From assembly GCA_947629795.1 (NCBI GenBank), contig CANRFC010000018.1, positions 1 to 53,144 of the forward strand: a DNA stretch of 53,144 nucleotides, given 5' to 3'. The stretch's first letter is position 1. The number at the start of each line of letters is the position of its first letter. The notes beneath the pieces are model-generated. The model was given only the letters and a program-made list of their open reading frames with translations, made no database searches and was not told the origin of the DNA. Made by a program: the position numbers and the translations under genes. This DNA comes from an uncultured Oscillospiraceae bacterium (GTDB lineage: Bacteria > Bacillota > Clostridia > Oscillospirales > Oscillospiraceae). Below are positions 10,736-52,900 of this stretch, one piece after another.

Positions 10736-12013
10736 ATGGCAAATCAGACCCAAAACAAAAAGCATAGGAAAAAGATCGACTGGCGCCGGGTCTTCGTGGG
10801 CGTCCTGGCCGCCATGCTGGCCCTGGCCCTCATCCTTCCCCTGGTGGGGAATCTGGGCACCCTGGCCCGGGCAGTGAGCCAGAGCGAGCTGAAAGACCAG
10901 ATCTCCTCCCTGAAGGGGGACGCCGCCGCCGCCACGGCCCGGAAAAAGGAGCTGGAGGACCAGCTCAAGGCCATTGAGAGCGACAAGGCCCAGGCCCTGA
11001 AGAAGAAGCAGCTCCTGGACCAGCAGCTCGCCGCCATCGACGAGGAGGTGGCCAACACCCAGAGCCAGATCGACACCTACACCACCCTCATCTCCCAGCA
11101 GGAGGAGGCCCTGGCGGTGGCCCAGGTGAAGGAGGCCGACGCCTATGAGCGCTTCTGCCAGCGGGCCAGGGCCATGGAGGAGGCGGGAGACATCTCCTAC
11201 CTGTCCGTCCTCTTTCAGGCCGACAGCTACGCCGACCTGCTGGACCGGATGGCCATGGTGGACGAGATCGTGGCCTACGACAATTCGGTGGTAGAGGCCC
11301 TGGCCGCGGCCCGCTCTGAGGTGGAGGCCACCCTGGCCGACCTGAGCGAGACCAAGGCCGGTCTGGATGAGCAGAAGGCCCTCCTGGACACCCAGCGCGC
11401 CGAGCAGGCCGAGAAGGTCAAGCAGGCCCAGGCGGTCTTCGACGAGCTGAAAAAGGAGGCCAGCGCCGCCGAGGCCCTGGTGGCTGCCGAGGAGGCCGAG
11501 GAGAAGAAGATCGCCGCCCAGATCGCCGCCAAGCAGAAGGAGCTGGACAAGCTCATCGCCGAGCAGAAGATCACCTTCACCACCGGCTCGGGCTACGCCT
11601 ACCCTCTGCCCTCGGGCTACACCACCATCACCTCCAAGTTCGGTCCCCGGACCCATCCCCTCACCGGGAAGTATAACGTCCACACCGGCATCGACATCGC
11701 GGCCGCCGGAGGCACCCCTGTCTACGCCGTCCAGGGCGGCGTGGTGGCCATCTCGGCCTACGCTCCCAGCTCCTACGGAGAGTATGTGGTCATCAACCAC
11801 GGAGGCGGCGTGGTCACCCTCTATGCCCACATGCAGCGGGGCTCCCGCAAGGTGAAGGAGGGGGACATCGTCAAACAGGGCCAGACCCTGGGCCTGGTGG
11901 GCATGACCGGCTCGGCCACCGGTAACCACCTCCACCTGGAGTACAAGGTCAACGGCGTGCGCAAGGATCCCAAGACCCTCTTCCCCAGCGTGAAATTTAC
12001 CATTTGGGACTGA
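10736..12013 (+). CDS. Coiled-coil M23 peptidoglycan hydrolase (EnvC/PcsB-like partner of FtsEX)
   Basis: 425 residues: one N-terminal membrane anchor (about 19-44), a long coiled coil rich in Ala, Glu, Lys and Gln (about 45-275), and a C-terminal LytM/M23 domain. The zinc ligands appear intact: H316 and D320 in HTGID and H400 in HLH, with H398 and H365 also in place. It may therefore be catalytic, unlike E. coli EnvC and NlpD, whose LytM domains are degenerate. An ATG at 10715 is in frame, but AAGGAG precedes the ATG at 10736. Directly follows ftsX. Confidence 0.92.
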   Translation: MANQTQNKKHRKKIDWRRVFVGVLAAMLALALILPLVGNLGTLARAVSQSELKDQISSLKGDAAAATARKKELEDQLKAIESDKAQALKKKQLLDQQLAAIDEEVANTQSQIDTYTTLISQQEEALAVAQVKEADAYERFCQRARAMEEAGDISYLSVLFQADSYADLLDRMAMVDEIVAYDNSVVEALAAARSEVEATLADLSETKAGLDEQKALLDTQRAEQAEKVKQAQAVFDELKKEASAAEALVAAEEAEEKKIAAQIAAKQKELDKLIAEQKITFTTGSGYAYPLPSGYTTITSKFGPRTHPLTGKYNVHTGIDIAAAGGTPVYAVQGGVVAISAYAPSSYGEYVVINHGGGVVTLYAHMQRGSRKVKEGDIVKQGQTLGLVGMTGSATGNHLHLEYKVNGVRKDPKTLFPSVKFTIWD

Positions 12014-12021
12014 ATATCCAT

Positions 12022-12051
12022 GGCGGGAGGGGAAGGAAACCCCCTCCCGCC
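12022..12051 (+). terminator. Hairpin after the M23 hydrolase gene
   Basis: GGCGGGAGGGG (12022-12032) and CCCCTCCCGCC (12041-12051) form a perfect 11-bp stem. The following TCTGTTACTT is only moderately T-rich, so termination may be partial, allowing read-through to the S41 gene. Confidence 0.6.
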
Positions 12052-12093
12052 TCTGTTACTTACCGCAATTTCCCTCTGAAGGAGGAATTTCCC

Positions 12094-13248
12094 ATGCTGA
12101 AACGGCGCTTTCACGGCGTGCATCTGATCCTCACTGCCCTGGGCGGGGCGGCTCTGGCCTGTCTCATCCTGGGATTGCTGGTGGGCCCCCAGGCCCTCAC
12201 CGTTCTGGAAGGCCTGGGCGCGGTGCGCACCGCCTTCGTGGGGGACTATGACCCCGACGCCGCCCTGGATACCGCCATGGAGGGCCTGGTCTACGGCCTG
12301 GGGGACCGGTGGAGCTACTACCTCACCGCCGAGGGCTACGAGGCCCAGAAGCAGAGCCGGAGCAACACCTATGTGGGCATCGGCGTGGTGGTGCGCTATA
12401 CCGACGAGCGGGGCCTGCTCATCGACACCGTCCGCGCCGGCGGTCCCGCCGAGGAGGCGGGGCTGGAGCCGGGGGAGATCATCACCGCCGTGGACGGGAC
12501 CTCCGTGGCCGGAGACGCCCGCTATGACGCCACCGGGCTCATCCAGGGGGAGAAGGGCACCGACGTGGTCCTCACCCTTCTCGCCCCCGACGGGAGCGAG
12601 CGGGAGGTCACCGTCACCCGGGCGCCCATCGAGACCGAGCCGGTGAAGAGCGAGATGCTGGAGGGGAAGGTGGGCTACGTCTCCCTCTCTGACTTCCACA
12701 GCCGCACCGCCGACCAGCTCAACGCCGCCGTGGACGAGCTGGTGGAGCAGGGGGCGGAGGCCCTGGTGTTCGACATGCGCAACAACGGCGGGGGATACGT
12801 GGACGAGATGACCGCCATGCTGGACCATCTCCTGCCCGAGGGGGTCATCTTCCGCAGCGAGAGCAAGGCCGGCGTGGAGCATGAGGTGAAGTCGGACGCC
12901 AACTGCGTGGACCTGCCCATGGCGGTGCTGGTCAATTCGGGCAGCTACTCCGCCGCCGAGTTCTTTGCCGCCGAGCTCCAGGAGGCCGCCGGGGCCAGGA
13001 TCGTGGGGGAGCCCACCTCGGGCAAGGGCTATTCCCAGCAGACCATCCCCTTGCCCAACGGCGGGGCCCTGAACCTCTCCACCGCCCGGTACACCACGGG
13101 CAGCGGGGTCTCCCTCATCGGCACGGGGGTCACCCTGGACCGGGAGGTCCGCCTCACCGAGGAGGAGAACGCCCTGCTGGCCGCGGAGGTCCTGGACAAG
13201 GGGGAGGACCCCCAGCTCCAGGCCGCCCTGGCGCTGCTGGCCGGGTGA
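12094..13248 (+). CDS. S41-family carboxy-terminal processing protease
   Basis: 384 residues with an N-terminal membrane anchor (about 11-31), a PDZ domain (about 90-170) and a protease core. The Ser/Lys dyad is visible as S286 in the SGSYSAAE motif and K311 in TSGKGYSQ. Such CtpA-like enzymes trim extracytoplasmic proteins. Its place after ftsEX and the M23 hydrolase matches the common ftsE-ftsX-M23-S41 order of Firmicutes. The open frame extends 30 codons upstream through the preceding hairpin, but GAAGGAGG places the start at 12094. Confidence 0.94.
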   Translation: MLKRRFHGVHLILTALGGAALACLILGLLVGPQALTVLEGLGAVRTAFVGDYDPDAALDTAMEGLVYGLGDRWSYYLTAEGYEAQKQSRSNTYVGIGVVVRYTDERGLLIDTVRAGGPAEEAGLEPGEIITAVDGTSVAGDARYDATGLIQGEKGTDVVLTLLAPDGSEREVTVTRAPIETEPVKSEMLEGKVGYVSLSDFHSRTADQLNAAVDELVEQGAEALVFDMRNNGGGYVDEMTAMLDHLLPEGVIFRSESKAGVEHEVKSDANCVDLPMAVLVNSGSYSAAEFFAAELQEAAGARIVGEPTSGKGYSQQTIPLPNGGALNLSTARYTTGSGVSLIGTGVTLDREVRLTEEENALLAAEVLDKGEDPQLQAALALLAG

Positions 13249-13269
13249 GCCCGGCCGGGGAGTTCACCC

Positions 13270-13298
13270 TTGACAGACGGCCCTAAAATACATATAAT
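13270..13298 (+). promoter_or_regulatory. Sigma-A promoter of greA
   Basis: TTGACA (13270-13275), a 17-nt spacer and TATAAT (13293-13298): both hexamers match consensus exactly. Transcription would start near 13305, leaving a leader of about 78 nt. Confidence 0.92.
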
Positions 13299-13316
13299 AC
13301 GTTTACTTGATGAAAA

Positions 13317-13348
13317 GGGGCCCCGGCAGGCCCGCGGGCCCCATTTTT
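13317..13348 (+). terminator. Attenuator-like hairpin in the greA leader
   Basis: GGGGCCC (13317-13323) pairs with GGGCCCC (13336-13342), followed by ATTTTT (13343-13348). It lies between the consensus promoter and the greA start, so transcripts would meet an intrinsic-terminator-like structure after about 40 nt. E. coli greA is also controlled by a leader terminator. Confidence 0.65.
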
Positions 13349-13382
13349 CCACCCTCAGTTCAACAAGGAAAGGTGACGACAC

Positions 13383-13859
13383 ATGGCAAAGCAGTATAAG
13401 CTGACCCCCAAACGCCTTCAGGAGCTCCAGGACGAGCTGACCTATCTGAAGACCACCCGGGAGAAGGAGGTGGCCGCCCTTTTGAAGGAGGCCCGGTCCT
13501 TCGGCGACCTGAGCGAGAACAGCGAGTATGACGAGGCCAAGAACGAGCAGGGCAAGCTCTACTCCCGCATCGCCGAGGTGGAGGCTGTGCTGGCCAACTA
13601 CGTGCTCATCGAGGAGCAGGAGTTCGCCGCCGACGCGGTGAGCCTGGGCAGCGTGGTGAAGGTGCTGGACGAGGAGTTCAGCGAGGAGTGCGTGTATCAT
13701 CTGGTGGGCTCCCAGGAGGCCGACCCCATGAACGGCAAGATCTCGGAGGACTCCCCCTTCGGCAAGGCCCTGATGGGCAAGGTCATCGGCGACGAGGTCA
13801 CCGTAGAGGCCCCCATGGGCGCCCTGAAGTACAAGATCCTGGGCATCGAGAAGAAGTAA
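13383..13859 (+). CDS. greA: Transcription elongation factor GreA
   Basis: GreA enters the secondary channel of RNA polymerase and stimulates cleavage of backtracked transcripts. The 158-residue product has the N-terminal coiled coil (about 10-75) with the acidic tip motif DLSENSEYDEAK, which carries the catalytic acidic residues, and the C-terminal FKBP-like domain (SPFGKALMGK). The AAGGAAAGGTGA ribosome-binding site precedes the ATG. The gene sits 27 nt before lysS, a common Firmicute pairing. Confidence 0.97.
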   Translation: MAKQYKLTPKRLQELQDELTYLKTTREKEVAALLKEARSFGDLSENSEYDEAKNEQGKLYSRIAEVEAVLANYVLIEEQEFAADAVSLGSVVKVLDEEFSEECVYHLVGSQEADPMNGKISEDSPFGKALMGKVIGDEVTVEAPMGALKYKILGIEKK

Positions 13860-13886
13860 AGAAGTCGAAAATTAGGAGAGATAGTA

Positions 13887-15386
13887 ATGGCTGAGCAGCA
13901 AAGCAGCAACGCCCCGGAGAAGGAGCTCTCTGAGCTTCTGCGCCTTCGCCGGGAGAAGCTCACCGCCTTGCAGGAGGCGGGGGAGGACCCCTTCCGGCAG
14001 ACCCGGTTTGCCTGGGACCACACCTCGGCGCAGATCAAGGAAAACTTTGACGCCCTGGAGGGCAAGGCCGTGAAGGTGGCCGGCCGTCTCATGTCCAAGC
14101 GGGGCATGGGCAAGGTCTCCTTCTGCGACCTCCAGGACCGGGACGGCCGCATCCAGCTCTACGCCCGGCAGGACGAGATGGACGAGGCAGTCTATAAGAA
14201 GTTCAAGAAGTTTGACATCGGCGACATCGTGGGCGTGGAGGGCGAGGTCTTCCGCACCCAGCGGGGAGAGATGAGCGTCCGGGCCCGGAACATCACCCTG
14301 CTGAGCAAGTCCCTGCTCCCCCTGCCCGAGAAGTTCCACGGCCTGCAGGACAAGGAGCTGCGCTACCGCCAGCGGTATGTGGACCTCATCGTGAACCCCG
14401 AGGTGAAGCGGAACTTTGTCATCCGCTCCCAGTTCGTCAAGCACGTCCGGGACTTCCTGGATGCCCGGGGCTTCATGGAGGTGGAGACGCCGGTGCTCAA
14501 CACCATCCAGGGCGGCGCCACCGCCCGGCCCTTCGTCACCCACCACAACACCCTGGATATCGACATGTACCTGCGCATCGCCACCGAGCTGCCCCTGAAG
14601 CGGCTCATCGTGGGCGGTATGGACCGGGTGTATGACCTGGGGCGCATCTTCCGCAACGAGGGCATGGACCCCAAGCACAACCCGGAGTTCACCACCGTGG
14701 AGCTCTACCAGGCCTATGCCGACTTCAACGACATGATGGACCTGTTCGAGGGACTGCTCTCCTCCGCCGCCCAGAAGATCCTGGGCACCTATGAGGTGGA
14801 GTGGCTGGGGGAGAAGATCTCTTTGGCTCCCGGCTGGCCCCGCCTGCCTATGCACGAGGCGGTGAAGCAGTACACCGGTCTGGACTTCATGGCGGTGCCC
14901 GACGACGCCCAGGCCGTGGCCCTGGCCAAGTCCATCGGGGTGGAGCTGCCCGGGACCAAGGAGCCTACCTGGGGCAACGCCCTCTACGAGGTCTTTGACC
15001 AGAAGGTGGAGGAAAAGCTGATCCAGCCCACCTTCATCACCATGCACCCGGTGGACGTCTCGCCGCTGGCCAAGCGGTCCCCCGAGGATCCCCGGCTCAC
15101 TGAGCGCTTCGAGCTGTTCATCTGCCGCTCCGAGATGGGCAACGCCTTCTCCGAGCTCAACGACCCCATCGACCAGCGCCAGCGCTTCCAGAAGGAAGTG
15201 GAGGCCCGGGCCAAGGGGGATGACGAGGCGGGCATGATGGACGAGGACTATATCACCGCCCTGGAGTACGGCATGCCCCCCACGGGCGGCCTGGGCATCG
15301 GCATCGACCGCTGCGTCATGCTCCTCACCGGCGCCGACTCCATCCGGGACGTGATCCTGTTCCCCACCATGAAGCCTATCGATTGA
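13887..15386 (+). CDS. lysS: Lysyl-tRNA synthetase, class II; 3' end remodelled by island insertion
   Basis: Charges tRNA-Lys with lysine. 499 residues: an OB-fold anticodon-binding domain (about 60-145) followed by the class II core with motif 2 ([15 protein letters not shown]) and motif 3 ([15 protein letters not shown]). TAGGAGAG precedes the ATG. The last codons read PTMKPID-stop. The far end of the adjoining island, at 19717-19743, again encodes PTMKPLDK-stop, so the original 3' end seems to have been displaced 4.3 kb downstream and replaced by the island's copy. Confidence 0.97.
15362..15376 (+). other. Putative attL core inside lysS
   Basis: CCCCACCATGAAGCC matches CCCCACGATGAAGCC at 19717-19731 in 14 of 15 positions. 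It is the codons for PTMKP at the lysS 3' end and marks the left end of the AT-rich island. Confidence 0.65.
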
Positions 15387-15780
15387 GAAACCCTGTAATC
15401 CCAGTGGTTTCAAGGTTTTCAGAGACGTGGTTTCATTGTTTTACCCCAGATACTACCCCATTTCATTTGAAAGATTAGTATTGTTAAAATTATGTTGCAT
15501 TAGAATATGCAATAAATATGCAGTGAAGTCGTATAATTAGAATTGTTTTGAGTAGGAAACCCACTTAGGCATAGCCTGGGTGGGCTTTCCGCTATAAAAT
15601 AAATAAAAGGATAATGAGTGAGATAGTGTAGGGGCATGTGGACATTCTTAGAAAAGCAAAAAAGTAAATTTCAATCAAAAAAAGGAGTTTTTCTCTTGCT
15701 CTCAATATAATTATATGGTACAATTTTAATACTCATATACAAATATGATCCGACTGGATCGAAGAAGAGGGTATCAATAA
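15387..15780. other. Gene-free left end of the island
   Basis: No gene is supported. The stretch holds the sub-terminal repeats (15401-15463), a hairpin at 15555-15590 whose arms include GGAAA/TTTCC, CCCAC/GTGGG and AGGC/GCCT, and the promoter of the first island operon at 15696-15724. It is strongly AT-rich from about 15440 on. Confidence 0.7.
15696..15724 (+). promoter_or_regulatory. Promoter of the first island operon
   Basis: TTGCTC (15696-15701), a 17-nt spacer and TACAAT (15719-15724) with a TGG extended -10, 56 nt before the start codon at 15781. Confidence 0.75.
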
Positions 15781-16326
15781 ATGGGCAAGGATGGGAGTAC
15801 TCAGGCGAAGCCACTATGTAGCCCTGATTTATGTGCTTGCAGGGGAGAAAAATGTAACTATGTACATAAGCAATACGGCCTTAATAAGTGGGTGTTTCGT
15901 CTAATCCTTTTTACAATTTTTCTTGGCATTATTGTTCCATTTGCCACAGAGGCTATTTTGCCGATATTTTTTCAGATTGAACCTTCTGGCTTGAATACGT
16001 GGAACCAATTTGTAAGCATTATCCTTGGAATAATTGCAACAGTTTTGAGTATAGTATCTATCATTATGGGGTTTAAGAATTACGAGGATACGCTTGCGGT
16101 TCAAGAAAAATACATGGAGGCATTGCAAAAAATAAGTAATATGGCGCAGGATCTCACACAGGTGAGAGATGAAGTAAAACGAATGGCGGCATTGCGGAGG
16201 GATGTTGAGGACGTTGAGGTTCCTTCTTCTAAAGTGTCTAAGATTGAATGGGAGGAAGAACCGAAGGAGGCTCCCGCAGATGCACAGAAGTCAGATCCTG
16301 TACCAAGCAAACCTATCGAGGGATGA
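15781..16326 (+). CDS. Hypothetical two-helix membrane protein with Cys cluster and coiled coil
   Basis: 181 residues, family not recognised. The N-terminus has four cysteines (C13, C18, C20, C25) in a C-x4-C-x-C-x4-C pattern that could bind metal. Two membrane helices follow (about 38-64 and 76-98), then a probable coiled coil (about 105-145) and an acidic, Pro-rich tail. The short loop between helices suggests a hairpin with both ends on one side of the membrane. First gene of an island operon; the next gene starts 27 nt later. A membrane-bound sensor or effector is possible, but nothing proves it. Confidence 0.75.
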   Translation: MGKDGSTQAKPLCSPDLCACRGEKCNYVHKQYGLNKWVFRLILFTIFLGIIVPFATEAILPIFFQIEPSGLNTWNQFVSIILGIIATVLSIVSIIMGFKNYEDTLAVQEKYMEALQKISNMAQDLTQVRDEVKRMAALRRDVEDVEVPSSKVSKIEWEEEPKEAPADAQKSDPVPSKPIEG

Positions 16327-16353
16327 ACTCTAAGGAGGAGGTAGGCAATTAAA

Positions 16354-16836
16354 ATGTGCATGAAAAATATGAATGCAACTATGCTGATGTGTTTGTCTGT
16401 TAAGAACCAGAATGGGGGCATTGATTCTTTTGAGCATATTTTTGATAGTATAATTCCCGGTAGGGAAGAGAATCAATATTTTATTGATGGAATGAATGTT
16501 GTCATTGATGCTTCAATTATTTTTGGAGATTCAGATGGTGAGGATTGTATAAAACTAAATCAAGAATATGAGTATATGGTAAGGCTTACTCATGTGGAAA
16601 GTGGATTGGGGATTCCACTATATACATTCAAATTGGCGATTCCTAAGGATGAGTTGCGGACTTGGTGTAAGAATTTCTATGAATTAAAACGAGTAATTAA
16701 ACTACCAAGAATTTATCTTCCTAAAGGCCTTGGAAATTATGCATTAAAGTTGTTAGTGCGGCCAGTTGAACTTGGAAGTGATGCTGGCTGGACAACACAG
16801 ACAATTCATAGTTTAGTAATTGGAGATGCAAATTAA
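16354..16836 (+). CDS. Hypothetical beta-rich protein of the island
   Basis: 160 residues, no recognised catalytic motif and no signal peptide. Alternating hydrophobic strands (NVVIDASIIFGDSDG, YEYMVRLTHVESGLGIPLYT, ALKLLVRPVEL) suggest a compact beta-sandwich. The general plan recalls DUF6941-type proteins, but this is a weak impression. AAGGAGGAGG lies 12 nt before the ATG, a rather long spacing. The second gene of the operon begun at 15781 and followed by a strong terminator, so the two products probably act together. Confidence 0.7.
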   Translation: MCMKNMNATMLMCLSVKNQNGGIDSFEHIFDSIIPGREENQYFIDGMNVVIDASIIFGDSDGEDCIKLNQEYEYMVRLTHVESGLGIPLYTFKLAIPKDELRTWCKNFYELKRVIKLPRIYLPKGLGNYALKLLVRPVELGSDAGWTTQTIHSLVIGDAN

Positions 16837-16902
16837 TATAAATTAGAAAAGGCAATTGATTGAGAGCCAGGTTTATGTTTTGTGCGAGATGATTGAAAGA
16901 AT

Positions 16903-16947
16903 AAAGCGCTATTGTGGCAATCAGCCATAATAGCGCTTTGCTTTTTT
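16903..16947 (+). terminator. Terminator of the first island operon
   Basis: AAAGCGCTATTGTGGC (16903-16918) pairs with GCCATAATAGCGCTTT (16924-16939) through 16 positions including one G-T pair, with a 5-nt loop and a downstream T-run (16942-16947). It is a sequence homologue of the terminator at 18397. Confidence 0.9.
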
Positions 16948-16977
16948 GCTTTTTTCGGAGTATAGATAAAAAAGTAT

Positions 16978-17006
16978 TTGCATTAAGCAGATAGGCGCAA
17001 TATAAT
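16978..17006 (+). promoter_or_regulatory. Promoter of the EEP gene pair
   Basis: TTGCAT (16978-16983), a 17-nt spacer and TATAAT (17001-17006), 54 nt before the ATG at 17061. It makes the EEP pair a separate transcription unit. Confidence 0.8.
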
Positions 17007-17060
17007 TAAAGTATCGAGAATTGTCGATTTTTGGAAATCCAATTTTGAGATCGTGATACT

Positions 17061-17876
17061 ATGGTGGTGGGAGTATTGCAAATAATGTTTTGGAATTTGA
17101 AGAAAAACGCTAATGAAAATCTCATTGCAGATATTATTGAAGAACAAAACATAGATATTGCATTATTTGCAGAGTATTTATCTACAGATTTTAGCACAGT
17201 GACAGACATTCTGGGTGATGAATATCGGTACTGCGTTGGGTATGGTGGTTGCGAAAAAATATCTTTATTGGCTAGGACGAGCATACAGGTATCGGTTCGT
17301 CGTGAGCAGAACAGATATGTGATTTATACATGCGAAGTTGATGGAGATAAGTTTATAATTGCAGGAGCCCATCTTCCGGCAAATCCGCACAGTGGCCCAG
17401 AAGAGAGAAAAATTGTTATCCGTGATCTCATTCAAGATGTTAATATGCTTGAAAAAGAGATGAAACATTATAATACGATTATTATTGGAGACTTTAATGC
17501 GAGTCCTTTTGATGATGAGTTAGTAGCAAAAGATGCGTTTAATGCTGTGCTGTACAAGGGAGTTATTATGCAGCAAGAAAGTGTTACAGTTGAAGGCAAA
17601 AAATACCGAAGATTTTATAATCCTATGCTAGATTATATTTCAGAGAAGAATGAAATCTATGGCTCATTATATTATTCTTCAGGTGCTACGACGCTGTATT
17701 GGTATTGCTATGATCAAATAATTGTGAGAAAGCCGCTAGTTGAGCGAATACGAGATATATCGTATTGCCGCAAAATAAAGAGCAGACGGCTGATTAAAGA
17801 TGTTGCACCAGATAAAAGTATTAGCGATCATCTCCCGCTACTTGTTGAAATTGAAAGGGGTGTGTGCAATGCGTGA
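17061..17876 (+). CDS. Endonuclease/exonuclease/phosphatase (EEP) superfamily protein
   Basis: 271 residues with the whole metal-dependent phosphoesterase motif set: WN at 11-12, the metal-binding E38 in FAEY, H104 in AGAHLP, D144 and N146 in IIIGDFNAS, YDQIIV near 218, and D256/H257 in SDHLP. The enzyme should cleave phosphodiesters or phosphate monoesters; the substrate (DNA, RNA, nucleotide or lipid) cannot be told. No signal peptide. The ribosome-binding site before 17061 is poor; an ATG at 17085 preceded by GTGGGAG is an alternative start that keeps every motif. It overlaps the next gene by 8 nt. Confidence 0.87.
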   Translation: MVVGVLQIMFWNLKKNANENLIADIIEEQNIDIALFAEYLSTDFSTVTDILGDEYRYCVGYGGCEKISLLARTSIQVSVRREQNRYVIYTCEVDGDKFIIAGAHLPANPHSGPEERKIVIRDLIQDVNMLEKEMKHYNTIIIGDFNASPFDDELVAKDAFNAVLYKGVIMQQESVTVEGKKYRRFYNPMLDYISEKNEIYGSLYYSSGATTLYWYCYDQIIVRKPLVERIRDISYCRKIKSRRLIKDVAPDKSISDHLPLLVEIERGVCNA

Positions 17877-18378
17877 TTTGTGGCCTGATTTTGAAAACTG
17901 TTCGATAGAAGCAAATAACTCAATTGAGATTTTGCGCAACCAAGCGAGAGAGATTAGTAAAAAAACGGGGAAGGCTGTCAAAGCAACATTTTCAAAATTG
18001 GAATACAAACAAGGGCCGCTGGCAGCGTCAGTTGCAATGAAGCAAGTGATTGGCGCATTGAGTTCGACCACATATGAAGAATTGTTGGATGAAGAACTCC
18101 AAGGGAAAGAAGATGCAAATAAAATTTTTTCAGTTACCAGATACAAGTTTGAAATATATAATGATGAATATCGATTTCGCCTTTTTGTACTAGAAAACAG
18201 AGAGGTATTTCCTGTGCGCCTTATAATTGATGATGGAATATGTGAAGAAATAGGGTATAAGAACCGTTCGGATATCATGAGCAATGAACAATTGGAGGAT
18301 GTTCTTCAGGAAATATTTTGCAGTTCAAAGGTTCGGTCAATAGTTATACGGATGATTCAGGCTAAGACAACGGAGTAG
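17869..18378 (+). CDS. Hypothetical partner of the EEP protein
   Basis: 169 residues, not recognised. The N-terminal 65 residues are predicted helical (NNSIEILRNQAREISKKTG), and the C-terminal part alternates strands and helices (YKFEIYNDEYRFRLFVLE, then VFPVRLIIDDGI). No membrane segment or catalytic motif is visible. The frame continues upstream, but the ATG at 17869 follows GAAAGGGG and overlaps the EEP gene end by 8 nt, so the two genes are translationally coupled. The tight coupling suggests a complex or a toxin-like/immunity-like or sensor/effector relationship (inference). Confidence 0.72.
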   Translation: MRDLWPDFENCSIEANNSIEILRNQAREISKKTGKAVKATFSKLEYKQGPLAASVAMKQVIGALSSTTYEELLDEELQGKEDANKIFSVTRYKFEIYNDEYRFRLFVLENREVFPVRLIIDDGICEEIGYKNRSDIMSNEQLEDVLQEIFCSSKVRSIVIRMIQAKTTE

Positions 18379-18396
18379 GTAGAGAGATTAAAAAGA

Positions 18397-18438
18397 AAAG
18401 CACTATTGTGGCAACCTGCCACAATAGTGCTTTATTTT
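18397..18438. terminator. Terminator of the EEP pair, shared with the HTH gene
   Basis: AAAGCACTATTGTGGC (18397-18412) pairs perfectly with GCCACAATAGTGCTTT (18418-18433), followed by ATTTT. It serves the plus-strand EEP pair and, by symmetry, may also end the convergent HTH gene, whose stop codon lies at 18432-18434. Compared with 16903-16939 the stem shows compensatory base changes. Confidence 0.88.
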
Positions 18439-18647
18439 ACTGCAGTTTGATTAGGCGTGTGCTGCATGATGTCCTCTACCTGGCAATCAAGGATCTCACA
18501 AAGATCATCAATAGTGGCCACGGTGACATTGCGGTTTTGTTTGAGGGAGTCGAGGGTACCCCGGCTAAACCCATAGTCCTTTAGGAGCGAATAAGTTGAA
18601 ATACCCTTCCGCTTCATCGTCTCCCAAAGAGGAGCATAAGTGATAAT
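18432..18647 (-). CDS. Small XRE/Cro-type HTH regulator with probable ATT start
   Basis: 71 residues. The helix-turn-helix covers about 13-50 (GISTYSLLKDYGFSRGTLDS), and the end DLCEILDCQVEDIMQ is typical of short Cro/CI-like proteins in Clostridia. The open frame reaches an ATG at 18734, but a minus-strand TATAAT lies at 18677-18672, so that ATG would be upstream of the transcript. GGGAGGTG (18661-18654) is 6 nt before an ATT codon at 18647, giving the family-typical start ITYAPLW. A GTG at 18656 is an alternative. Divergent from the lipoprotein gene, with an operator-like palindrome between them. Confidence 0.75.
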   Translation of the reverse strand: MITYAPLWETMKRKGISTYSLLKDYGFSRGTLDSLKQNRNVTVATIDDLCEILDCQVEDIMQHTPNQTAVK

Positions 18648-18693
18648 AGCGACCACCTCCCTCTGGTCACTATTATATTTTCTGCCACCCCTC

Positions 18694-18722
18694 TTGAATA
18701 TTCCCGATATACCGGGTATAAT
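18694..18722 (+). promoter_or_regulatory. Promoter/operator of the island lipoprotein gene
   Basis: TTGAAT (18694-18699), a 17-nt spacer and TATAAT (18717-18722). The spacer and -10 carry the palindrome ATTCCCG-N6-CGGGTAT, which would place a repressor dimer on the promoter. The divergent HTH gene is the obvious candidate regulator. Confidence 0.75.
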
Positions 18723-18754
18723 GGGAGCACTCAATGAAGGGGAGTCACTTAATT

Positions 18755-19435
18755 ATGAAAAGTAGAAAAATTCGGCGTACAGTTTTATTTCCTTTAGTCC
18801 TGTCATGCTGCCTAACACTGATGTGTTCGTGTGGGGAGGCGAATAGTGGCGGGACGGCTGCAACCCAAACGCCGCAGCCAGGCAAGGAAGTGACAGCGAT
18901 CATACTTTCTTCCGAAACTATCGAAATAACAGTAGGTGATACCTATCAGATGACATATATGGTTCTTCCTGATGGAGCAGCAGATCAAACATTGGCCTGG
19001 AAGTCTACTGATGAGGCAAAAGTGATTGTGGATGAGGTGGGCATCATTACCGCAGTTGAAGAGGGGCAGGCGAATATAATTGTTTCAACTGAGAATGGTG
19101 TGTACGCCACGTGTAAAGTGACTGTAAAAGAGCCATCTGCTTATGATAGGCTGGATGAAGATGAAAAGGAATTGGTAGATGCGCTGCTGGCAGGAATAGA
19201 TAAGTTTTATGATCCTGGATCGGTTAGCCTTAAATATGCTTATCATCATGGCACTGGAGATTCTTGGGCAATAACGGTGTCTGCACAGAATCAGATGGGT
19301 GGGTACAGTGAAAAGGATTACAATTTGTATGAGGATGGAAGACTGGAAGAGCCAGTTTTTAATCATGTGCGTATGCCGGGGAATTATTATGACCTTGATT
19401 TAGTGAACGAAGCTATCAAGGAATGTACCAATTAG
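18755..19435 (+). CDS. Lipoprotein with bacterial Ig-like (BIG2) domain
   Basis: 226 residues. The signal peptide ends in a lipobox-like LMCSC at about residues 23-27, the mature protein starting at the last Cys. After a Gly/Thr/Pro linker comes a BIG2-type Ig fold (about 48-126) with the marks ITVGDTYQMTY, LAWKSTDEAK and GIITAVEEGQANI. A C-terminal domain of about 95 residues, rich in Tyr and Asp, is not recognised. The ATG at 18755 follows AAGGGGAG; an earlier in-frame ATG at 18734 lies too near the -10. Probable surface-exposed cargo protein. Confidence 0.85.
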   Translation: MKSRKIRRTVLFPLVLSCCLTLMCSCGEANSGGTAATQTPQPGKEVTAIILSSETIEITVGDTYQMTYMVLPDGAADQTLAWKSTDEAKVIVDEVGIITAVEEGQANIIVSTENGVYATCKVTVKEPSAYDRLDEDEKELVDALLAGIDKFYDPGSVSLKYAYHHGTGDSWAITVSAQNQMGGYSEKDYNLYEDGRLEEPVFNHVRMPGNYYDLDLVNEAIKECTN

Positions 19436-19440
19436 CAAAA

Positions 19441-19481
19441 AAAAACTCCGCTCAGGGCTGTGGCCCGGGGCGGAGTTTTAG
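19441..19481 (+). terminator. Terminator of the island lipoprotein gene
   Basis: AAAACTCCGC (19442-19451) pairs with GCGGAGTTTT (19470-19479) with an inner GGGC/GCCC stem. The A-run before and T-run after make it usable in both directions. Confidence 0.88.
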
Positions 19482-19716
19482 CAAGTCGTTTAGATGCCGA
19501 TTGAAATTGACAAAATGAATGGAATGGTATATCATGAATAATCAGTTGGAGAGGCGTACGCTGAAGACAGCCTTTCTACTACCCCAAATTCTACCCCATT
19601 TGCCTACAACAAGACGGCACATGACGAAACAAGACGAAAGGCAAAATCCAGTGGTACCAAGGAGTTCAGCATATGATGAAACATGATAAAGCAAGACGAA
19701 CCCCACCTGCAAAAAT

Positions 19717-19731
19717 CCCCACGATGAAGCC
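19717..19731 (+). other. Putative attR core, displaced lysS 3' end
   Basis: CCCCACGATGAAGCC, 14 of 15 identical to 15362-15376. Read on to 19743 in the lysS phase it gives PTMKPLDK and a TAA stop, which is a better family-like lysS C-terminus than the present PTMKPID. Confidence 0.65.
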
Positions 19732-19755
19732 CCTGGACAAGTAAAGACCCTTCCG

Positions 19756-19785
19756 GAAAGACGCCCTCGGGGCGTCTTTCCTTTA
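19756..19785 (+). terminator. Terminator, probably the original lysS terminator
   Basis: GAAAGACGCCC (19756-19766) and GGGCGTCTTTC (19770-19780) form a perfect 11-bp stem with a 3-nt loop. It lies 12 nt after the displaced lysS stop and is GC-rich like the flanking chromosome. Confidence 0.8.
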
Positions 19786-19885
19786 CCCTCCGGCCCGGCG
19801 GGGAAAAACTTATTGCAATCCGTCCCGGGGGGTGTTATCCTTATAACAAACTGGACCCATCCATTGCCAGGGAGGAGGCCACCCT

Positions 19886-21268
19886 TTGCTGGAACGGCTT
19901 TTTCGCTTCATCCGGGACCGTTTTATCCGCTCCCGCCGCCTCAACGCCACCCGGCTGGTGGCCCTGTCCTTCGGGGCCATCATCCTGGTGGGAACGCTGC
20001 TGCTCACCCTGCCCATCGCCGCCCGCAGCGGGGAGAGCCAGGGGTTCTTCACCGCCCTGTTCACCGCCACCTCGGCCACCTGTGTCACCGGGCTGGTGGT
20101 GGCCGACACCGCCCTGACCTGGTCGCCCTTCGGCCAGGCGGTGATCCTGCTGATGATCCAATTGGGCGGCCTGGGCTTCATGACGGTCATCACCCTCATC
20201 TCCCTGGCGGCCCACCGGCGCATCGGCCTGTCCGAGCGGCTCTTGATCGTCTCCACCCTCAACCTCAACGAGCTGGACGGGGTGGTGCGGGTGGTGCGCC
20301 ACGCCCTGATGGGCACCGCCCTCTTCGAGCTGGCGGGGGCCGCCCTGCTGGCGGTGCGGATGATCCCCCGCTTCGGCCTTTTCCGGGGCCTCTGGCACGC
20401 CCTTTTCCACTCGGTTTCCGCCTTCTGCAACGCCGGTTTTGACCTCCAGGGGGCCGATTCGGGCCCCTTCTCCAGCCTGGCCGGCTACGCCGACGACCCC
20501 CTGGTCCTGCTCACCACCGCCGCCCTCATCATCGTGGGCGGCCTGGGCTTCTTCGTGTGGGAGGACATCCTGAAGAACAGGAGCTGGAAAAAGCTGACCC
20601 TCTACTCCAAGCTGGTCCTGGCCATCACCGCCGCCTTGCTGATCTTCGGCACGGTGTTCTTCCTCCTCAACGAGAGCTCCAACTCCGCCACCCTGGGGGC
20701 CATGACGGCGGGGGAGAAGGGGCTCAACGCCTTCTTCCAGTCGGCCACCCTGCGCACCGCCGGCTTCAACGTGCTGGACCAGGGGGCCCTCCGGGACGAC
20801 TCCCAGGTGATGAGCTGCATCCTCATGCTCATCGGCGGTTCCTCGGGCTCCACCGCCGGCGGCATGAAGACGGTGACCGCCTGGGTGCTCCTCATGGTCC
20901 TCTTCACCGGCCTGCGGGGCCGCTCCTCCATCGTCTTCCGGGGCCGGACCCTGCCCACCCACCGGGCGGTGAGCGCCGTGACCCTCTTCCTCATGGTCCT
21001 GCTCCTCTTCCTGGGCGGGTCCATGATCCTCACGGTGATGGACGGCGTGCCCTTCCTCCCCGCGGCCTTCGAGACCGCCTCGGCCCTGGGCACCGTGGGG
21101 CTCACTACCGGCTTGACCCCGGGGCTCTCCCGGGCATCCCAGGTGCTGCTCATCCTCTTCATGTACACCGGCCGGGTGGGGGTGCTCTCCTTCTCCATCG
21201 GCTTTCTGACCCGCCCCAAGGACACCCTGGACATCCGCTATCCCGAGTTCAGCATCATGGTAGGCTGA
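19886..21268 (+). CDS. ktrB: Ktr/Trk-type potassium uptake membrane subunit
   Basis: Membrane subunit of a K+ uptake system, 460 residues, with four M1-pore-M2 repeats. The four selectivity-filter segments are visible as TSATCVTGL, SAFCNAGF, SATLRTAGF and ASALGTVGL, each with its conserved Gly. The intramembrane loop GGSSGSTAGGMKT is also typical. The start is the TTG at 19886, 7 nt after GGAGGAGG; no ATG is suitably placed. ktrA follows 19 nt later. Confidence 0.94.
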   Translation: MLERLFRFIRDRFIRSRRLNATRLVALSFGAIILVGTLLLTLPIAARSGESQGFFTALFTATSATCVTGLVVADTALTWSPFGQAVILLMIQLGGLGFMTVITLISLAAHRRIGLSERLLIVSTLNLNELDGVVRVVRHALMGTALFELAGAALLAVRMIPRFGLFRGLWHALFHSVSAFCNAGFDLQGADSGPFSSLAGYADDPLVLLTTAALIIVGGLGFFVWEDILKNRSWKKLTLYSKLVLAITAALLIFGTVFFLLNESSNSATLGAMTAGEKGLNAFFQSATLRTAGFNVLDQGALRDDSQVMSCILMLIGGSSGSTAGGMKTVTAWVLLMVLFTGLRGRSSIVFRGRTLPTHRAVSAVTLFLMVLLLFLGGSMILTVMDGVPFLPAAFETASALGTVGLTTGLTPGLSRASQVLLILFMYTGRVGVLSFSIGFLTRPKDTLDIRYPEFSIMVG

Positions 21269-52813: not shown

Positions 52814-52900
52814 GCACGAGTGGTGGAATTGGTAGACTCGCTGGCTTCAGGTGCCAGTGCTCGCAAGGGCGTGTGGGTTCGAGTCCCACCTCGTGCACCA
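52814..52900 (+). tRNA. tRNA-Leu, anticodon CAG
   Basis: 87 nt with encoded CCA. The acceptor stem GCACGAG pairs with CTCGTGC. D-loop TTGGTAGAC, anticodon stem CTGGC/GCCAG around TTCAGGT (anticodon CAG, reads CUG), a long class II variable arm (TGCTCGCAAGGGCGTG) and T-arm GTGGGTTCGAGTCCCAC are all present. The CUG-reading tRNA fits the heavy CTG codon use in this GC-rich genome. Confidence 0.97.

Follow-up and report, generated by a model that had tools for sequence, protein, structure and literature searches.

The island described here occupies positions 15377-19716 of contig CANRFC010000018.1 (assembly GCA_947629795.1) of an uncultured Oscillospiraceae bacterium, a stretch of 53,144 nt that was analysed at its full length and is called the window below; it lies at the 3' end of lysS, the gene for lysyl-tRNA synthetase (LysRS), and has a G+C content of 0.393, compared with 0.645 in the remaining window. 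It is very probably a small, non-autonomous element flanked by attachment (att) sites and akin to the cis-mobilizable elements (CIMEs), which was inserted by a lysS-specific integrase that either acted in trans or has since been deleted. By comparison with related sequences, the AT-rich stretch is an insertion and the distal copy of the lysS end is the original one. The features on which this reading depends are the following.

13887-15386, + strand: lysS, its last codons apparently supplied by the island and now reading KPID; full-length relatives in the genus are 80-90% identical
15361-15376, + strand: attL core TCCCCACCATGAAGCC, inside the lysS 3' end (repeat family D18)
15401-15422, + strand: left copy of the CCAGTGGT repeat, pairing with 19648-19669 (22 nt, 82%; family D8)
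15442-15463, + strand: left copy of the TACCCCA arm pair, likely integrase arm sites, pairing with 19580-19601 (22 nt, 91%; family D5)
15545-15600, + strand: terminator-like hairpin within the left end (z -5.6)
19580-19601, + strand: right copy of the TACCCCA arm pair; the same arms occur at lysS in genomes G295, G130 and G151
19580-19700, + strand: attR region, with ACAAGACG-type repeats and the right CCAGTGGT copy (19648-19669)
19716-19731, + strand: attR core TCCCCACGATGAAGCC, 15/16 identical to the attL core
19717-19744, + strand: displaced original lysS 3' end (..MKPLDK, stop); relatives end in PLDK, PLD or PL
19745-19790, + strand: terminator-like hairpin of lysS, beyond the island (z -4.5)
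19886-21268, + strand: trkH, the gene next to lysS at empty sites

The direct repeat at the lysS end, which a preliminary description of this DNA had given as 14/15, is the same repeat as the 16-nt core. The pattern CCCCACNATGAAGCC has exactly two matches in the 2.86-Mb genome, which are the two island cores, with no match on the opposite strand and none with the reversed control, and the 16-mer at zero or one mismatch finds no further site within the window. The related sub-terminal repeats that had been placed within both ends were recovered as the 22-nt pairs listed above; since they stand in a listing of 49 families of short repeats, some of them due to chance, the weight of these pairs rests on their recurrence in other genera. 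The distal lysS copy reads ATG AAG CCC CTG GAC AAG TAA (KPLDK) and is followed by the stable hairpin and then by trkH, as expected from the earlier proposal that a better C-terminus and the original terminator lie there. The same description had counted six cargo genes without a visible integrase, and for the six plausible genes of the island no recombinase match was indeed obtained, at the cut-offs applied, from Pfam, PHROGs, PADLOC or NCBIfam. An integrase trace was likewise missing by tblastn with the lysS integrase clade, where the weak island hits (best E 0.29) did not surpass those of the flank control (best E 0.10), and by profile. The genome holds 13 Pfam phage-integrase matches, none of them on the window's contig, and a single tRNA gene, at 52814, was detected in the window.

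Empty sites were sought in a same-genus set of 16 genomes, including the window's own, in 11 of which lysS and trkH share one contig; the two genes are on separate contigs in G002, G007, G011 and G012, and G003 has no clear lysS. In five genomes (G001, G006, G009, G013 and G014) trkH follows lysS after only 76-93 nt, so that the check for empty sites proposed in the preliminary description turned out in its favour, and in G004 and G005 the gap is about 300 nt and holds a small ferredoxin-like gene; in the window the two genes are 4.5 kb apart, and in G008 161 kb. The gaps of G010 (1.9 kb) and G015 (2.7 kb), with what by eye is a ferredoxin-like gene directly after lysS, were taken neither as inserts nor as empty sites, and G011, with one core only in its lysS-trkH region, was left out of the counts. 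None of the 12 readable same-genus lysS ends is KPID, the forms being (K/R)PL, KPLD, KPLDN and (K/R)PLDK, so that the possibility of a PID end in all strains, raised beforehand as a test, was not borne out. The short gaps, together with the absence of a KPID end in these relatives, indicate that the island was inserted and that lysS originally had the distal end.

The ends of the window's island recur outside its genus. The pattern TACCCCA-(0 to 15)-TACCCCATTT was matched 11 times among 400 family genomes, in 7 of them, and in four of the seven (G000, which is the window's own genome, G295, G130 and G151) it adjoins lysS cores at both ends, which places this arm subtype at lysS in three other genera; no lysS core was seen beside the pattern in G140, G017 and G200. 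In G295 the arms delimit, 3.2 kb apart, an integrase-less lysS island. Its attR aligns ungapped with the window's over 121 positions, of which 94 are identical (78%; score 107, compared with at most 30 in 2000 shuffles), and its cargo combines an RnlA-type protein, which has an RNase H domain, and an RnlB-type antitoxin with a regulator and a protein of 223 aa that has no Pfam match. The G130 island is a 5.3-kb prophage remnant with both ends, a lysS-type integrase reduced to its last 258 residues, a further recombinase and phage lysis genes, one gene falling in the same PHROG as a gene of viral contig L239, described below. G151 carries a full integrase and TACCCCA arms at lysS, its two ends being on different contigs; this answers the earlier call for a lysS element with a tyrosine recombinase and the same repeats. 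Neither tblastn with the integrase clade nor a profile search revealed a trace of an integrase in the G295 island or in two tandem units of locus L138. These integrase-free islands fit mobilisation in trans, and G130, with its partial integrase, indicates that decay by deletion also occurs.

Judged from sequence, the lysS 3' end is an integration hotspot in Oscillospiraceae, with its own clade of tyrosine integrases on integrative and conjugative element (ICE)-like and phage-like elements. The lysS-adjacent integrase of G151, a protein of 424 aa, shares 38-78% identity with its counterparts next to lysS in L095, L104, L125, L130, L159 and G008, and used as a query it gave 30 matches in 26 of 400 family genomes (E <= 1e-90). 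A lysS core is present in 26 of these 30 loci, a count in which L197 and L219 share one site, as do L209 and L221, and in which the core has one mismatch in L197, L209, L210, L219 and L221; none was found in L200, L212, L215 and L222. In a tree of 52 rows, from which L187 (a copy of L193) and identical sequences had been removed and in which five long-branch meetings were flagged, the lysS-adjacent integrases fall in a group of 31 rows with support of 100/100, which also includes, on a long branch, L006 from the window's own genome. Among the 80 named lysS loci, the best of a longer list, with at least 10 kb downstream in 44 and at least 1.5 kb in 61, six carry a lysS-type integrase, and L084 holds a 70-aa piece of one. 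The lysS-type integrases presumably resemble the Tn916 integrase. As a conserved neighbour, a protein of about 195 aa lies behind the lysS integrase in G151 (L175:8152-8727), L095 (11868-12461), G130 (L173:10880-11464) and L239 (801-1379), and is of HNH type by PHROG in the last.

The elements at this site are of several kinds. The 161-kb lysS-trkH composite of G008 (C20:756858-917520; L069-L077), on a contig equal to one of Pseudoflavonifractor sp. Marseille-P3106, has cores at both ends and one inner core, and consists of two tandem conjugative-type elements with two facing tyrosine integrases, one on each side of the inner core. Its 47-kb part encodes a relaxase, a coupling protein and, from our reading of the Pfam matches, a VirB4-like and an EF-G-like ribosomal-protection-type protein; the 113-kb part encodes a coupling protein and, on the same basis, a VirB4-like protein. 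The IMG/VR contig IMGVR_UViG_3300035498_001334 (L239, 5860 nt) carries a lysS-type integrase as a C-terminal part, which shares 70% identity with the G151 enzyme, together with the HNH-type protein, amidase and endolysin genes, and a core with element-like sequence on either side, which is attP or a tandem junction, the contig having no terminal repeat; this gene content indicates that lysS integrases ride phage-like elements as well as ICEs. In L138, from a sheep-rumen metagenome-assembled genome, lysS is the site of a tandem pair of units without integrase (11497-20335), about 4.4 and 4.0 kb long, with cargo including sulfite-reductase-type and alanine-racemase-type proteins. A separate observation concerns L159:11477-14900, where 3.4 kb between two lysS cores hold an integrase and a small gene that by eye is excisionase-like; it looks like a minimal lysS element, autonomous for integration.

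The probable point of exchange can be bounded from the other genera. In G295, attL is CCCGACG-ATGAAACC and attR CCCGACC-ATGCGCCC, which places the exchange to the left of the codon after ATG; in G130, attL is CCCGACG-ATG and attR CCCCACG-ATG, which places it to the right of the fourth base. The two bounds leave AC-N-ATG as the common stretch, whose N differs between the two ends of the element in the window (C/G), G295 (G/C), G008 (A/G) and L159 (A/T). In Tn916, a 6-bp coupling sequence is reported to derive from the donor and may mismatch the target (accessible part of PMC12084037), so that the mismatch at N would suit a Tn916-type integrase. The lysS-specific tyrosine integrase of a temperate phage or an ICE would have inserted the island by an exchange within AC-N-ATG, and the island's own end would have restored the lysS frame, with KPID replacing KPLDK. 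This integrase may have come from another element, in trans, or may have been encoded by the parent element and then deleted; an enzyme of this specificity might still be able to release the island by excision, or to move it together with an element inserted in tandem.

Three alternative readings were weighed. That there was no insertion at all, the repeat being due to chance and the genes being ordinary AT-rich intergenic genes, is extremely improbable: short two-copy repeats are indeed common, as the 49 families of the window illustrate, but the core is unique genome-wide, empty sites exist, and core, arms and attR recur in other genera. That the island moves in trans at present, mobilised like a satellite cassette by lysS phages or ICEs, has nearly an even chance. 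It would account for ends that are conserved across genera while the cargo is unrelated, and lysS integrases are borne by several element classes; nevertheless, neither the own genome nor the collections searched yielded a helper, and there is no direct sign of excision. A dead remnant, in which a complete lysS prophage or ICE with its own integrase was reduced by deletion to two ends and some cargo and has been immobile since, is a serious possibility to which we give somewhat less than an even chance. G130 offers a precedent, with both ends, the 258 C-terminal integrase residues and phage lysis genes within 5.3 kb, and CIMEs are described as deletion products in the accessible part of PMC7563491; on the other side, the window, G295 and the two L138 units show no integrase trace, and attR is well kept in the window and G295 despite unrelated cargo.

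The CIME-like reading itself, with insertion by a lysS-specific integrase, has to be set against a number of results that weigh against it. Two patterns for a helper with the window's attR gave no exact match in viral contigs, and the attR pattern with up to two mismatches was found in the own genome only among 394 genomes of the order (G295 not being among those listed). The own genome has no integrase close to the G151 type among the candidates scored (4 of 12), and L006, its nearest integrase, was rejected as a helper, being 35% identical to that of G151, Tn916-like by eye and without a lysS core in its locus. G151 itself shares only a 35-nt attR stretch with the window. Finally, neither an excised form nor transfer was seen, and a dead remnant would look alike.

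Insertion at this site may also change the host enzyme. Some lysS genes extend about 150 aa beyond MKP(L/T), with a tRNA-binding domain (PF01588, checked in two tails); such tails are found in L104 and in G008 at the positions given here, and also in L210 and L138.

L104:11483-11956: LysRS tail
L074:14779-15252: LysRS tail (G008)

A comparison of L104 (Flavonifractor) with L210 (G045) gives 75% identity for the LysRS bodies, over 270 aa, and 92% for the tails; the tail in the G008 composite shares 98% identity with the L210 tail, although the displaced host end of G008 is short (KPL). The tails of L104, L210 and G008 have a G+C content of 0.48-0.49, compared with 0.60-0.64 in the two LysRS bodies, and in L138 the far core has an open LysRS tail and the middle core a tail-like sequence that is not open. 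Such tails appear to travel with lysS elements. They may also be native in many hosts; most of the 22 rows of the G+C listing (one genome appearing twice, as L104 and L202) have no G+C contrast. The far ends of the tail-carrying elements in G131 and G045 were sought and not found. A more speculative view, which we consider rather doubtful, is that the lysS 3' end serves as a cassette dock, at which integrase-less, att-flanked cassettes (the window's island, that of G295 and the L138 units) would be shuffled in trans by a shared pool of phage and ICE integrases, much as integrons shuffle cassette arrays that lack an integron integrase (CALINs), each insertion rewriting the LysRS C-terminus by anything from a few residues to the element-borne tRNA-binding domain of about 150 aa.

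The cargo of the island consists of six genes, listed here with the neighbouring hairpins.

15781-16326, + strand: cargo 1, 181-aa membrane protein, weakly SLATT-like (SLATT_1, 5.9e-6, under the curated cut-off)
16354-16836, + strand: cargo 2, 160 aa, no family match (Pfam, PHROGs, PADLOC, NCBIfam)
16896-16954, + strand: terminator-like hairpin, first copy (z -7.7), 76% identical to the copy at 18390
17061-17876, + strand: cargo 3, 271 aa, EEP-family nuclease/phosphatase-like (PF03372, 1.6e-7)
17869-18378, + strand: cargo 4, 169 aa, partner of cargo 3 and overlapping with it, start codon picked by eye
18390-18448, + strand: terminator-like hairpin, second copy (z -6.0)
18432-18734, - strand: cargo 5, 100-aa Cro/C1-type regulator (PF13443, 7.6e-16)
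18734-19435, + strand: cargo 6, 233 aa, lipoprotein-like by eye, with an Ig-like (Big_2) domain (PF02368, 1.3e-10)
19437-19486, + strand: terminator-like hairpin (z -5.9)

Cargo 1 is present in 1 of 365 family genomes, its own, with a non-significant PADLOC match (E 0.078) and none in plasmids; cargo 3 was found in 2 of 400, its own included. The cargo 3-4 pair recurs in G162, where a relative of cargo 4 (30% over 105 aa) follows a relative of cargo 3. Rare cargo and low G+C fit a recent gain. Cargo 3 has one partial match in plasmids, on a Rhizobium plasmid, and no relative in viral contigs in a search reaching close relatives only; no phage record resembling the island DNA and, by sequence, no solved structure for the cargo were found, and structure prediction for cargo 4, with an alignment of two rows as input, gave a model of low quality (mean predicted local distance difference test score, pLDDT, 42) that was not used. 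The repeated island hairpins (16896-16954 and 18390-18448) fold as terminator-like stems, are 76% identical over 59 nt with paired stem changes, and stand one behind each cargo gene pair; the two pairs possibly share an origin. A role of the cargo in defence or maintenance is a guess, made slightly likelier by the RnlAB-type pair of the sister island in G295.

With these data, a large gut-bacterial family gains a defined integration hotspot and a matching integrase clade, and the ends are seen to suffice for delimiting recombinase-less islands, which would escape integrase-first element finders. Through the tRNA-binding domain of LysRS that some lysS elements carry and apparently exchange, a possible effect of mobile DNA on an essential host enzyme becomes testable; were the cassette dock true, the mobile pool would also reshape an essential translation enzyme.

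Among known systems, the streptococcal CIMEs come closest: in the accessible part of PMC7563491 they are described as att-flanked cargo, classically 1.2-13 kb long, that lacks genes for an integrase or for conjugation and sits in a housekeeping gene, at its 3' end. The window's island is likewise flanked by attL and attR, lies at such a 3' end and holds no integrase, conjugation or mobilisation gene as judged from the profile libraries and the lysS integrase clade. Tandem lysS elements, the arrangement in which a CIME would be mobilised in cis after accretion of an ICE or IME, exist in G008 and L138, no movement having been seen. The streptococcal CIMEs differ in their host family and in being described in that source as derived from ICEs or integrative and mobilizable elements (IMEs), whereas the window's closest arm-sharing relatives include the phage-like G130, with the phage-like L239 related by its integrase. 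The island has no integrase and relaxase of its own, as an ICE or IME would, and it does not show the structural, packaging or replication genes and the own integrase of a prophage or of a satellite like the phage-inducible chromosomal islands (PICIs): its matches to phage genes are confined to the Ig-like domain in cargo 6 and to weak hits in families without a name, and no integrase was found. A protein-coding target, held unusual in the preliminary description, is less so, since the accessible part of PMC4701971 reports ICEs of Streptococcus inserted by a tyrosine integrase at the lysS 3' end with direct repeats of 13-17 bp; these agree with the island in site and repeats but are ICEs or decayed ICEs, unlike the window's island, which has no integrase or conjugation gene. 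The ssrA islands of Dehalococcoides, as far as PMC3146451 was accessible, are similar as integrase-less islands at the site of integrase-bearing ones and differ in their serine recombinase and tmRNA gene target. CALINs, as presented in the available part of PMC11389934, work alike, as cargo with recombination sites mobilised in trans, but use attC sites and an integron integrase, in contrast to the single chromosomal att site of the window. No account of lysS islands in Oscillospiraceae or of element-borne LysRS domains was found in the literature searched, from which subscription papers mostly fell outside. In summary, the island is an att-flanked insertion without integrase at a much-used lysS site, and extends a known class of elements to a new setting.

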